In this document: positions 9,517-16,108 of the stretch, one piece after another
Layout of the letters: every line of letters starts with the position of its first letter
Position numbering within the stretch: the first letter of the stretch is position 1
From: an uncultured Desulfovibrio sp.
GTDB lineage: Bacteria > Desulfobacterota > Desulfovibrionia > Desulfovibrionales > Desulfovibrionaceae
Assembly (NCBI GenBank): GCA_913063155.1
Contig: CAJXYU010000001.1
Location: 806,001-870,000 of the forward strand
Reading direction: 5' to 3'
Length of the DNA: 64,000 nucleotides
Position numbers and translations under genes: made by a program
The notes under the pieces: generated by a model
Told to the model about the DNA's origin: nothing
Seen by the model: only the letters and a program-made list of their open reading frames with translations
Databases searched by the model: none

Positions 9517-9882
9517 CTATTCCTGGGTTATCTGAATACGCTGAGGTTCCACCTCTTCCACTCGGGGCAGGCAGAGCTCCAGGACTCCGTTCTTCAGATT
9601 GGCTTTGATGCGGTCCCGGTCCACAATATCGGAAAGAGAAATCGTGCGCCGGTATTCACCGTTGCCAAACTGCATTTCCGTAAAGTTCTCGCCCTCGGCC
9701 GCATCGTAGGAAGTACGGCCCGTCACGGTGAGCTCGTCCTCCTGCAGGTCGATGACCAGATCCTCTTTTTCCACACCGGGCAAATCCATATAAATATAGA
9801 AACCGTCTTCCCGCTCCAGGATGTCCGTCACCGGGCGGTACTGAGTCAGGTTCTTGTCGTTCTTCTTCATCAGTTCGCTCAT
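9517..9882 (-). CDS. Hsp20/alpha-crystallin small heat-shock protein
   Basis: A 121-residue ATP-independent holdase chaperone. The alpha-crystallin domain covers about residues 14-110: the DLPGVEKEDL strand region and the conserved LKNGVLEL pattern near the end are visible. It lacks an obvious C-terminal I-x-I/V anchoring motif, though IQI near the C-terminus could serve. The start ATG at 9882 follows AAGGAGG. It is the second gene after another hsp20, with an 11-bp gap, so the two are almost certainly one operon and may form mixed oligomers. Confidence 0.92.
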   Translation of the reverse strand: MSELMKKNDKNLTQYRPVTDILEREDGFYIYMDLPGVEKEDLVIDLQEDELTVTGRTSYDAAEGENFTEMQFGNGEYRRTISLSDIVDRDRIKANLKNGVLELCLPRVEEVEPQRIQITQE

Positions 9883-9893
9883 GGCGGCCCTCC

Positions 9894-10307
9894 TTACTCG
9901 GCCTGGATGCTGATACTGCGGGGTTTGACCTCTTCGGTCTTGGGGAGGGCCACGGTGAGCAGACCGTTCTTCATGGCCGCCTCCACCCTGTCCCGGTCCA
10001 CCGGGACATGAAGGTTGATCACCCTGTGGAAAACTCCGGCCGGACGCTCCTGTCGAAAGTATTTTCCGTCCTCGGCCTTGCGTTCGCCTTTAATGACCAG
10101 AGTCTTGTCCGTGAGGGTCAGCTCTATGTCGTCGATGGCCACACCGGGGATTTCCGCACGCACGATGATGTTGTCGTCATCCTGGCTCAGGTTCAACGGA
10201 GGGTACGTCAGTCGACGCTGCCCGCCGAAACCGGGGCGCAGAAAATCCTCGAACAGCTTGTCGAACCGGTCAAACGGAGAATAGAGTGTGTTGAAATCCA
10301 AAACCAT
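9894..10307 (-). CDS. Hsp20/alpha-crystallin small heat-shock protein
   Basis: A 137-residue small heat-shock protein, first gene of the hsp20 pair. The N-terminus has the FDRFDKLFEDF helix typical of bacterial Hsp20. The alpha-crystallin domain (about 35-130) has AEIPGVAIDDIEL and ends with MKNGLLTVALPK. A terminal ISIQ sequence could be the I-x-I anchor. The ATG at 10307 is chosen because AAGGAGG stands 6-7 nt upstream; the frame extends to 10370, but that extension would overlap the promoter. Confidence 0.93.
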   Translation of the reverse strand: MVLDFNTLYSPFDRFDKLFEDFLRPGFGGQRRLTYPPLNLSQDDDNIIVRAEIPGVAIDDIELTLTDKTLVIKGERKAEDGKYFRQERPAGVFHRVINLHVPVDRDRVEAAMKNGLLTVALPKTEEVKPRSISIQAE

Positions 10308-10339
10308 ATCGTACCTCCTTGCAGTCTTTGCTGTATTGT

Positions 10340-10367
10340 AGAATAGAACAGCCCGAAAAGAAGTCAA
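10340..10367 (-). promoter_or_regulatory. Sigma-70-like promoter of the hsp20 operon
   Basis: On the minus strand, TTGACT (10367-10362) is followed after 16 nt by TATTCT (10345-10340), about 33 nt ahead of the hsp20 start. No heat-shock sigma-32 type pattern or CIRCE element was seen here. Confidence 0.55.
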
Positions 10368-10410
10368 CAACTGTGGAAAACAACAGTGTTATTTTTTCCG
10401 CCGCGCATGC

Positions 10411-13665: not shown

Positions 13666-13938
13666 CTATTCCCGCCCCATCATGAACAACACCTCCCAGT
13701 TGAGAGGCGAGAGGCTGTCCCTGTTCCTGCTCTGAAGACACTCCCATCCCTCTTCACCGATCACGTTCACGGGAATCCGGTTCACAAACTGGCGGGCGTC
13801 GTCCCCGCAGCATTTGCAGGACCAACCACAGATGTCGCAGGTGCACCCGCCGGTCTTGATAAGTTCCTTGACCGTTCCGGCCTTGTCGCAACAACCGTCG
13901 CACAGGCGCAGAAACACGGTGGGAGTCTTCCGTTTCAT
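13666..13938 (-). CDS. Small cysteine-rich protein, unknown
   Basis: A 90-residue protein with ten Cys, nine of them in two clusters: C13, C16, C17 and C32, C34, C37, C41, C43, C44. This suggests one or two zinc or Fe-S sites, or a redox role. I do not recognise the family. The ATG at 13938 is used; an in-frame ATG at 13995 would overlap the upstream region of the divergent CULT gene, and neither has a strong ribosome-binding site. Cysteine clustering on this strand is not an accident of the opposite strand, which has no convincing gene here. It is divergent from the CULT gene with a 90-bp shared upstream region. Confidence 0.6.
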   Translation of the reverse strand: MKRKTPTVFLRLCDGCCDKAGTVKELIKTGGCTCDICGWSCKCCGDDARQFVNRIPVNVIGEEGWECLQSRNRDSLSPLNWEVLFMMGRE

Positions 13939-14027
13939 GGAAATCACGGTATACAGCCTTTCTCCCGCAAGCAATACTTCCCACAAGTCCCACAATGGGC
14001 TATCCTTATCCTGATGAGGAGTACTCT

Positions 14028-14462
14028 ATGCTGACGACGCACCACCACATCCCCCTGCAGTGCTTCAAGGAAGGCCTGGAGCCCCGGAAAGGGACGCCAA
14101 AGCCGGACGAGGAGTTAGACGACGGTTCCGGCGGCAACCGCATCATCATCTGCCGTTCCTGCGGCAATCGCATTACCCCTGCCAGTTCCGCCATCTCCAT
14201 GAACGGAAGCCACAAGCACACCTTTTTCAATCCCCACGGCTATGTCTTTGAGTTGGGCTGCTTTTCAACGGCCCCAGGCACCATCCGCATGGGCCAGGCG
14301 TCCGGCGAGTTCACCTGGTTCAGCGGCCACACCTGGCAGATCACGCTCTGCGGCCAATGCAACGTGCATATCGGCTGGTATTTCCAGGGTAATTCCAGCG
14401 GAAGTTTCTATGGCCTGATCCTACGGCAGCTAGCCGAGGTGGAAGATGAAAACGAATCATGA
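14028..14462 (+). CDS. Cereblon-type CULT-domain protein
   Basis: A 144-residue protein with a CULT domain (about 40-135), the thalidomide-binding fold of cereblon. Zinc ligands are C42-x2-C45 and C108-x2-C111. The three aromatic-cage tryptophans are W97, W103 and W117, with spacings of 6 and 14 that equal human CRBN W380, W386 and W400. NPHGYV starts at N68, 29 residues before the first Trp, as N351 is in CRBN. HIGW and FYGL follow as in the family. The position of CRBN H378 is Phe here. Bacterial single-domain CULT proteins are known, for example from Magnetospirillum, but their physiological role is not. The ATG at 14028 is picked for its GAGGAG site; the frame opens at 13995. No signal peptide is seen. 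Confidence 0.92.
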   Translation: MLTTHHHIPLQCFKEGLEPRKGTPKPDEELDDGSGGNRIIICRSCGNRITPASSAISMNGSHKHTFFNPHGYVFELGCFSTAPGTIRMGQASGEFTWFSGHTWQITLCGQCNVHIGWYFQGNSSGSFYGLILRQLAEVEDENES

Positions 14463-14639: not shown

Positions 14640-15449
14640 ATGAACAAAAGCGCACTTTTTATACTTGCCTTCTTTTCGGTCGTCATGATGACACCCCCCT
14701 CTTTGGCCCAGCCCAGGCAGAACCTGCTGCTGGTCTATGAGGACAAGCCCAACTCCAACCGGTTCCTGGGGTTCGGCACGGCCATCCCCAAGGAGAATCC
14801 GGGACTGACCGTGGAATTGTTGCGCATGACAGCCCAAAAACTGGGTATAAATCTCAAATTTCAACGCATGCCTTGGAAGCGCTGCGAATACATGGTCCAG
14901 CACGGGCTGGCCCATGGCATGTTCCACGCCAGCTACAACAGGGAACGCACCCAATACGCCCTCTATCCTATGAAGGACGGCAAGCCTGATCCCTCCCGAG
15001 CCGTGTTCACCCAATCCTATCACTTCTATGCGGCGAAACAGCGCCATGTGGAGTGGGATGGCCTGGAACTACGCAACCACGGGGCCAAGCCAGTGGGCAT
15101 CACATTGGGGTACTCCGTGGCCAAGGACCTTGATGAGCTCGACATCCGCTATGTGGAATTCGCAGACCAGGAAACCGGCCTGATCAGCCTTGTGGAAGAC
15201 CGCGTGGGCGCTTTGGCAGGGCTGGCCAACATGATGGACCCCGCCATCAAAGAAAGCAGCCACCGCTTTCAGACCGTGGAAAAACTTTTTCCCCCCATCA
15301 GGACTAAACCCTATTATGTGGTCTTTTCCCATACGCTGGCCAAAACCGATCCGACATTGCCCGACCGGTTCTGGAACACCATGAAAAAGATGGAGGGCTC
15401 CGCCGCCTTCAAGAAACGCATCAGATTCTATCAGCAAGCCCCGACTTGA
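14640..15449 (+). CDS. Periplasmic solute-binding protein-like, orphan
   Basis: A 269-residue secreted protein. The signal peptide (about 1-23) ends at SLAQP. The body resembles family 3 solute-binding proteins: GLTVELLRMTAQKLG, an FQRMPWKRCEYMVQ helix, ITLGYSVAKDL and LVEDRVGALAG. It is more divergent than the pair at the window start. No ABC transporter genes are adjacent, and upstream lies the CULT gene 177 bp away. The ligand is unknown. The start has only a weak CGGA site. Confidence 0.82.
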   Translation: MNKSALFILAFFSVVMMTPPSLAQPRQNLLLVYEDKPNSNRFLGFGTAIPKENPGLTVELLRMTAQKLGINLKFQRMPWKRCEYMVQHGLAHGMFHASYNRERTQYALYPMKDGKPDPSRAVFTQSYHFYAAKQRHVEWDGLELRNHGAKPVGITLGYSVAKDLDELDIRYVEFADQETGLISLVEDRVGALAGLANMMDPAIKESSHRFQTVEKLFPPIRTKPYYVVFSHTLAKTDPTLPDRFWNTMKKMEGSAAFKKRIRFYQQAPT

Positions 15450-15481
15450 CGCTCCGCCCGCCCCGGACCTACAACCCCAGC

Positions 15482-16108
15482 ATGCCCAGCCGTTACAGCA
15501 TTCCCGCCGTCTCCCGCCACCGCGTGGAGGAGGTCATCAAACGTTCGCGCTTCATCGCCACCCTGACCCATGTGGAATCCGTCGAGGAGGCCAGGGAATT
15601 CGTATCCGCCGTCAAGGAGGAATTTCCTGACGCCACCCACAACTGCTGGGCCTATGCGGCCGGTCCCCCGGGCGACACCGCCCATGTCGGCCTGAGCGAC
15701 GACGGCGAGCCCCACGGAACGGCTGGCAAACCCATGCTCAACACACTTCTGCACTCGAACGTGGGAGAAATCGCCTCCGTGGTCACCCGCTACTTCGGGG
15801 GCACGAAGCTGGGCACCGGCGGCCTGGTACGTGCCTATTCCGGCATGGTTTCGCTGGGTTTGGAATCTCTGGCCTGCAAAGAAAGAGTCGAAACCGCAAA
15901 GGTTCAGATCGTCATCTCCTACTCACACGTAACCCTCTTCAAAAGAATGCTTCCGGAGCATGAAGCGACAGTCCTGGAAGAACTTTTCGAGGCCGATGCC
16001 TCCTTTCTTGTGGAGCTTCCCGAAGAGCGTATTGCGGCCTTTGAAGAAGCCGTGGTGGAAATGACCAACGGGGAAACGCTTTTTTCCCCTTTGCATCCCC
16101 CAGCCTGA
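15482..16108 (+). CDS. IMPACT/YigZ family protein
   Basis: A 208-residue cytoplasmic protein of the UPF0029/IMPACT family. The N-terminal domain carries the signature DDGEPHGTAGKPML followed by VVTRYFGGTKLGTGGLVRAY; the C-terminal part is a ferredoxin-like domain. Eukaryotic IMPACT regulates translation through GCN1, while bacterial YigZ has no settled function. The ATG at 15482 starts close to the conserved SRHRVEEVIKRSRFIA. A TTG at 15446 would overlap the previous stop codon and is a possible alternative. Confidence 0.88.
   Translation: MPSRYSIPAVSRHRVEEVIKRSRFIATLTHVESVEEAREFVSAVKEEFPDATHNCWAYAAGPPGDTAHVGLSDDGEPHGTAGKPMLNTLLHSNVGEIASVVTRYFGGTKLGTGGLVRAYSGMVSLGLESLACKERVETAKVQIVISYSHVTLFKRMLPEHEATVLEELFEADASFLVELPEERIAAFEEAVVEMTNGETLFSPLHPPA

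Follow-up and report, generated by a model that had tools for sequence, protein, structure and literature searches.

We analysed a stretch of 64,000 nucleotides from an uncultured Desulfovibrio sp. (contig CAJXYU010000001.1, positions 806,001 to 870,000), hereafter the window, and found that its plus-strand gene at 14028..14462 (stop counted in) encodes a stand-alone bacterial CULT protein of 144 amino acids whose zinc site and ligand cage are intact, as judged from the sequence and from a predicted model. We regard it as almost certain that the pocket functions as a CULT cage, and we tentatively favor the view that the protein is a receptor that recognizes cyclic-imide or uracil-like rings and acts as an adaptor. 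Three observations go beyond an earlier interpretation of the same DNA (the sequence-only reading): a conserved motif in the N-terminal tail, cage-less copies of the protein in one genus, and a conserved cysteine-rich gene head-to-head with the CULT gene. The natural job of the thalidomide pocket is a long-standing question, and bacteria, lacking ubiquitin ligases of the cereblon type, provide a clean setting for it; the interest of the gene centers on this natural-ligand question and on the tail motif.

The open reading frame begins with an ATG at 14028 that is preceded, six bases ahead, by AGGAG at 14017-14021. An alternative in-frame ATG at 13995 has no AGGAG-like site, and a scan for sigma-70-type promoters found none. 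The two CxxC zinc pairs, the NPHGYV motif and the three tryptophans at spacings of 6 and 14 to which the sequence-only reading had drawn attention were all recovered in the translated frame, on the plus strand. The first zinc pair, CRSC (C42 and C45), lies at 14151..14162; the NPHGYV hairpin tip, which contributes N68 at 29 residues ahead of W97, lies at 14229..14246; and the cage segment, which runs from F95, W97 and W103 to W117 and includes the second zinc pair (C108 and C111), lies at 14310..14378. Relatives were compared in two alignments, A1 with 25 sequences and A2 with 90 of 109 usable relatives. Both zinc pairs are present in 90/90 proteins of A2, and N68 is present in 85/90, the other five being divergent extra copies from a single genus, g25.

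The assignment to the cereblon-like CULT family, which had been made from motifs, was borne out by similarity searches and by fold. In a phmmer search against PDB sequences, the top eight matches were all chains of MsCI4 (E 2.5e-30 to 4.4e-29), followed by cereblon chains from E 6.5e-12, a similarity that chance could not account for. The sole Pfam match was Yippee-Mis18 (PF03226), at 15.9 bits against a cut-off of 26.6 (E 0.014); Pfam showed no second domain beyond this sub-threshold match and no LON domain in the CULT protein or in five neighbors scanned, and the NCBIfam and PADLOC scans returned no family for it. An AlphaFold2 model built from 90 aligned sequences had a mean predicted local distance difference test score (pLDDT) of 87.5, with block means of 92-98 over residues 41-140. 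This model, which stands in the comparison in place of a solved structure, is a beta-tent with zinc site and cage. It superposed on MsCI4 (6r1d_B) with Z 19.6 and a root-mean-square deviation (rmsd) of 0.9 Å over 104 residues, and on cereblon with Z 17.6 for 6h0f, 8tzx and 8u15 (rmsd 1.1 Å over 105 residues for 8tzx_D). By alignment, the cage residues correspond to those of human cereblon (CRBN), as had been proposed. The CRBN positions, which we take to be numbered W380, W386 and W400 for the cage tryptophans, N351 and H378, were equated with the window residues through the alignments. The phenylalanine at the H378 position had been read correctly (F95), yet it is usual among relatives, occurring in 25/25 sequences of A1 and 81/90 of A2, where the remainder are 6 Trp, 2 Cys and 1 His; weakly scoring relatives elsewhere in the phylum have His, Tyr or Asn at this position.

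The cage is maintained in most relatives. The N-W-W-W set was intact in 183/186 proteins read outside genus g25 (171/172 and 12/14), and ligand recognition is therefore under strong selection in most genomes; the 171/172 belong to a set of 192 proteins in which some genomes are present twice, as the named loci and the genome set overlap (locus L212 and genome G003, for example). The three non-intact cages belong to interrupted or incomplete genes. In genome G026 (L015/L068), the CULT gene is interrupted by an in-frame TAG while the adjoining cysteine-rich gene has no internal stop, which represents either a decayed copy or a sequencing error; in G223 (L323) and G499 (L315), the CULT matches cover part of the domain in one frame, as in broken genes or assembly faults.

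Genus g25 departs from this pattern. All 14 of its genomes in the class search hold CULT copies that have lost N68 as well as W97 but retain W103, W117 and all four cysteines. There are 12 such copies in eight genomes and 8 in the other six, and CULT genes occur in tandem (L101, L104, L105, L107, L108, L110, L112, L114 and L304-L309). A copy with an intact cage was found in 11/14 genomes; G112 and G128 each gave a single match, to a cage-less copy, and G209 has two cage-less copies and a fragment. To judge from these sequences, ligand recognition was given up in the extra copies of g25, twice without an intact copy detectable by the search. The tail pattern described below occurs in 4/8 intact copies and 1/12 cage-less copies of eight g25 genomes. 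The cage-less copies and the head-to-head cysteine-rich gene offer natural comparisons for the intact protein.

The CULT gene of the window is ordinary for its group and is an expected member of an already described family. The source genome has one copy, and the gene is present in 31/36 genomes of the genus, 69/199 of the family, 130/348 of the class and 39/395 sampled across the phylum. One peptide pattern run over a collection of species genomes gave 312 confirmed stretches, of which 80 were kept; their names are mostly of the Desulfo- type, together with Magnetococcales, Spirochaetes, Acidobacteria, Nitrospirae and a Rhodospira. That bacterial CULT proteins had been described before is correct: passages of Lupas et al. 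2015 (PMC4287342) report stand-alone members that are mainly deltaproteobacterial, Desulfonatronospira included. Because such members are in print and 130 of the 348 genomes of the class have one, the window protein is not an unusual find. A mobile origin was rejected, within the scope and search sensitivity of the collections used, as no CULT relative was found among viral contigs, plasmids or phages. No fusion of CULT to another domain was noticed among long open frames, which were taken as stop-free stretches with no further test. A PF03226 family search of the source genome has no evidential value, as it gave no match and neither did the controls.

The protein has a second conserved element ahead of the domain. 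In the window, the motif L10-Q-C-F-K14 (14055..14069, plus strand; hydrophobic-hydrophobic-Lys) is followed by an acidic, proline-containing linker, E15-G36 (14070..14135, plus strand), whose alignment columns are poorly conserved and where the confidence of the model is low to moderate, with block means of 60-79 (residues 11-40). In relatives, the motif consists of an Arg or Lys preceded by a pair of hydrophobic residues, in many cases L or F, again with an acidic proline-containing linker after it. It sits about 30 residues before the first zinc cysteine (in the window, C12 is 30 residues before C42) and recurs across phyla.

To assess this conservation on held-out sequences, we used a position matrix of the tail trained on 29 family sequences; the window, genus g25 and two loci without a usable tail were left out. 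In the first held-out set, each genus was represented by a single sequence (29 of 39 loci), and the 29 other genera had a mean score of 1.64, compared with -0.10 ± 0.54 after shuffling (z 3.2; 1/500 shuffles as high). The second set consisted of 61 named sequences outside the family, dereplicated from 79, with the tail-less L274 and nine family loci dropped; the mean was 3.41, compared with 0.35 ± 0.37 (0/500 shuffles as high). The window itself scored 1.4, a middling value, so that its copy of the motif is recognizable but not strong. A plain pattern was present in 41/61 of the outside sequences, compared with 17.9 ± 3.4 in shuffles (0/1000 as high), and in controls on the same set, reversed tails and a mirrored pattern each gave 14 matches and a pattern whose third residue is acidic gave 16. 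We take the tail motif to be a site through which the protein docks to another protein, and it may resemble the docking motifs of known protease adaptors. The window model assigns no secondary structure to the tail and gives it low confidence (block means of 62 and 60 over residues 1-20), and the model of a short-tailed relative, L246, is similar in this respect (57 and 49 over residues 1-20, no secondary structure). An unplaced tail in both AlphaFold models would be expected if the motif bound another molecule, although any loose tail would look alike.

A mechanism that would join these elements begins with the zinc-pinned beta-tent, whose three-tryptophan cage would take a small ring with an imide-like edge. 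The ligand may be of the uracil or uridine type, or it may be the C-terminal cyclic imide that damaged or cleaved proteins acquire; binding of either by the window protein is proposed by analogy with the family, in which MsCI4 takes up both thalidomide and uridine (PMC4449219). The flexible N-terminal tail would dock a partner through its hydrophobic-plus-basic motif, and the protein would thus hold a cyclic-imide-bearing ligand or protein in the cage while the tail brought it to that partner, perhaps an energy-dependent protease. That the tail has a partner, and what the partner might be, is something we infer. To our knowledge, the ubiquitin system is absent from these bacteria. In a setting that lacks cereblon's ligase partners, a cage joined to a flexible, motif-bearing tail looks like an adaptor. 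According to parts of PMC11974815, C-terminal cyclic imides are a degron read by the CULT domain of human cereblon, and PCMT makes them in human cells; PDB entry 9nr3, CRBN with GLUL-cN, was among the superposed structures. The most specific form of the proposal, in which bacterial CULT proteins are adaptors of a cyclic-imide pathway, with a cage that recognizes damaged proteins by their C-terminal cyclic imides and an N-terminal motif that docks an energy-dependent protease, we consider improbable as it stands. The motif provides a concrete handle, as a short peptide usable in a search for a partner.

Several observations weigh against the adaptor proposal. The distribution of PCMT lends it no support: the gene is present in 343/348 genomes of the class, and a link to protein repair through co-occurrence is uninformative because PCMT is nearly universal there. 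The core of the motif, at three residues, is short and loose. The plain pattern was composed after the tail listing had been viewed, so that the strictly held-out test is that of the matrix. With Ala allowed at the first position, and after exclusion of genus g25 and of ten records judged to be duplicates, 127/162 proteins have the pattern and 35/162 do not, and by eye it is hard to make out in most weakly scoring members of the phylum. Finally, alignments to the alphaproteobacterial MsCI4 start at window residue 34-38, and the Rhodospira relative (L274) has just 13 residues ahead of the zinc site; the tail is therefore not part of every CULT protein.

It is possible, if somewhat doubtful, that the protein is instead a sensor or carrier of a small molecule, with uridine, uracil or another free metabolite as the ligand of the cage, a tail that serves as a minor dimerization or regulatory element, and no link to protein damage. 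Sections of PMC4449219 report that MsCI4 binds thalidomide and that uridine binds with comparable affinity and stabilizes the protein; PDB entry titles show that MsCI4 was crystallized with thalidomide and with deoxyuridine; and, in passages of PMC4287342, the close likeness of bacterial and eukaryotic cages is taken as a sign of a widespread ligand. On the other hand, those who discovered that uridine binds could not establish a biological context for it, as the same sections of PMC4449219 state, and no pyrimidine gene was noticed among the neighbor clusters viewed, with no search aimed at one.

The position of the motif bears on another alternative, which we consider unlikely, namely a self-regulating receptor in which the N-terminal motif, folded onto the CULT domain or onto a dimer mate, acts as a lid or pseudo-ligand until the real ligand displaces it. 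Among the 61 outside sequences, 38/46 matches to the plain pattern start 27-35 residues before the first zinc cysteine. The distances over the 162 proteins were anchored near -31 and are hence biased, so that the spacing given here is taken from the 61-sequence set. Such a fairly constant spacing, a further point against the adaptor proposal, could reflect docking of the motif onto the protein's own CULT domain or onto a dimer mate. A lid would also make sense because the unliganded CULT domain of MsCI4 is partly unfolded, as reported in sections of PMC4449219. Against folding back, the tail is unplaced in the monomer models of two orthologues, and the length of the linker varies within the genus of the window.

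Upstream of the CULT gene and opposite to it, the minus strand of the window encodes a cysteine-rich protein of 90 amino acids at 13669..13938, a possible partner of the CULT protein, with the pattern C-x2-CC, then C-x-C-x2-C-x3-C-x-CC. The gene was found in 23/36 genomes of the genus, and in all 23 it adjoins the CULT gene, divergently and within about 0.8 kb; among the loci read, it lies upstream of and opposite to CULT in 26/26 matches (22 in g1). An alignment of 19 members has 37 invariant columns, nine of them cysteines. For the member in the window, Pfam, NCBIfam and PADLOC gave no family and the PDB sequences no match below E 0.6, and DUF4594 was matched weakly by 3/19 members (best E 0.017). 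The claim that the CULT gene stands alone with no Lon-like domain is thus correct for domains, as judged by Pfam, but overlooks both the conserved N-terminal tail and this divergent gene. A metal- or redox-linked pairing of the two proteins, peculiar to some Desulfovibrionaceae, is very unlikely. In its favor, besides the head-to-head arrangement, the cysteine-rich gene occurs in 30/348 genomes of the class, all 30 among the 130 with CULT and 0 among the 218 without (Fisher p 1.4e-14 by genome), and four genera have it away from CULT and still only in genomes with CULT. Against it, the gene is present in just 30 of those 130 genomes, the association falls to p 0.02 by genus and to p 0.07 for the four unlinked genera alone, and adjacent genes are lost together, so that genome counts are not independent.

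A survey of 100 neighborhoods of relatives led us to reject an operon conserved across genera, since no specific neighbor is common to them. The widest-spread neighbor clusters are general families: the first covers 24 loci and 16 genera, with histidine kinases in three members scanned, and after it come ABC ATPases, aminotransferase-type regulators and HDOD proteins, each judged from one or two members. The picking of open reading frames in these neighborhoods missed short genes, as the cysteine-rich gene surfaced by tblastn, and short recurring neighbors elsewhere may be missed. On the 3' side of CULT in the window, 14640-16108 (plus strand) encodes, by Pfam, a solute-binding-type protein with a weak SBP_bac_3 match and then a YigZ/UPF0029 protein. 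In the genus, CULT is often followed by an HD-domain or solute-binding-type gene and then by a YigZ-type gene; the latter lies downstream of CULT at 20 loci in g1 and g13 and keeps its place in much of the genus, which looks like plain synteny. Elsewhere in the window, at 9517-10370 on the minus strand, two adjacent small genes have the look of Hsp20-type small heat-shock proteins, by eye and with no search made.

Among known systems, the closest is MsCI4 (MGR_0879) of Magnetospirillum gryphiswaldense, which shares with the window protein its stand-alone form, fold, zinc site, cage and the Phe at the H378 position, at about 45% identity over about 104 residues. The two differ ahead of the domain, where the window protein has 36-37 residues with a conserved motif, whereas the matched part of the MsCI4 chains begins at residue 16-20. 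The bacterial CULT proteins grouped by Lupas et al. 2015, which include that of Desulfonatronospira thiodismutans, are likewise stand-alone and mainly deltaproteobacterial; the tail motif and the cage-less copies do not appear in those passages of PMC4287342 that describe the group. Searches of open-licence literature turned up no paper that gives a bacterial CULT protein a function, which does not show that none is in print. Yippee/Mis18 (PF03226) is a distant beta-tent relative, for which the window protein falls below the family cut-off. The CULT domain of human CRBN has the same cage, zinc site and fold at about 30% identity, whereas the window protein, at 144 residues, lacks the LON domain and DDB1-binding region that precede the CULT domain in CRBN and has Phe in place of H378. 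Finally, the comparison with AAA+ protease adaptors, which join a substrate-binding domain to a flexible tail with a conserved docking motif, is tentative: the tail motif of the window protein is conserved, and its docking role is putative. If the protease-adaptor proposal were true, the E3 role of cereblon would be a eukaryotic form of a quality-control device that is older and bacterial.
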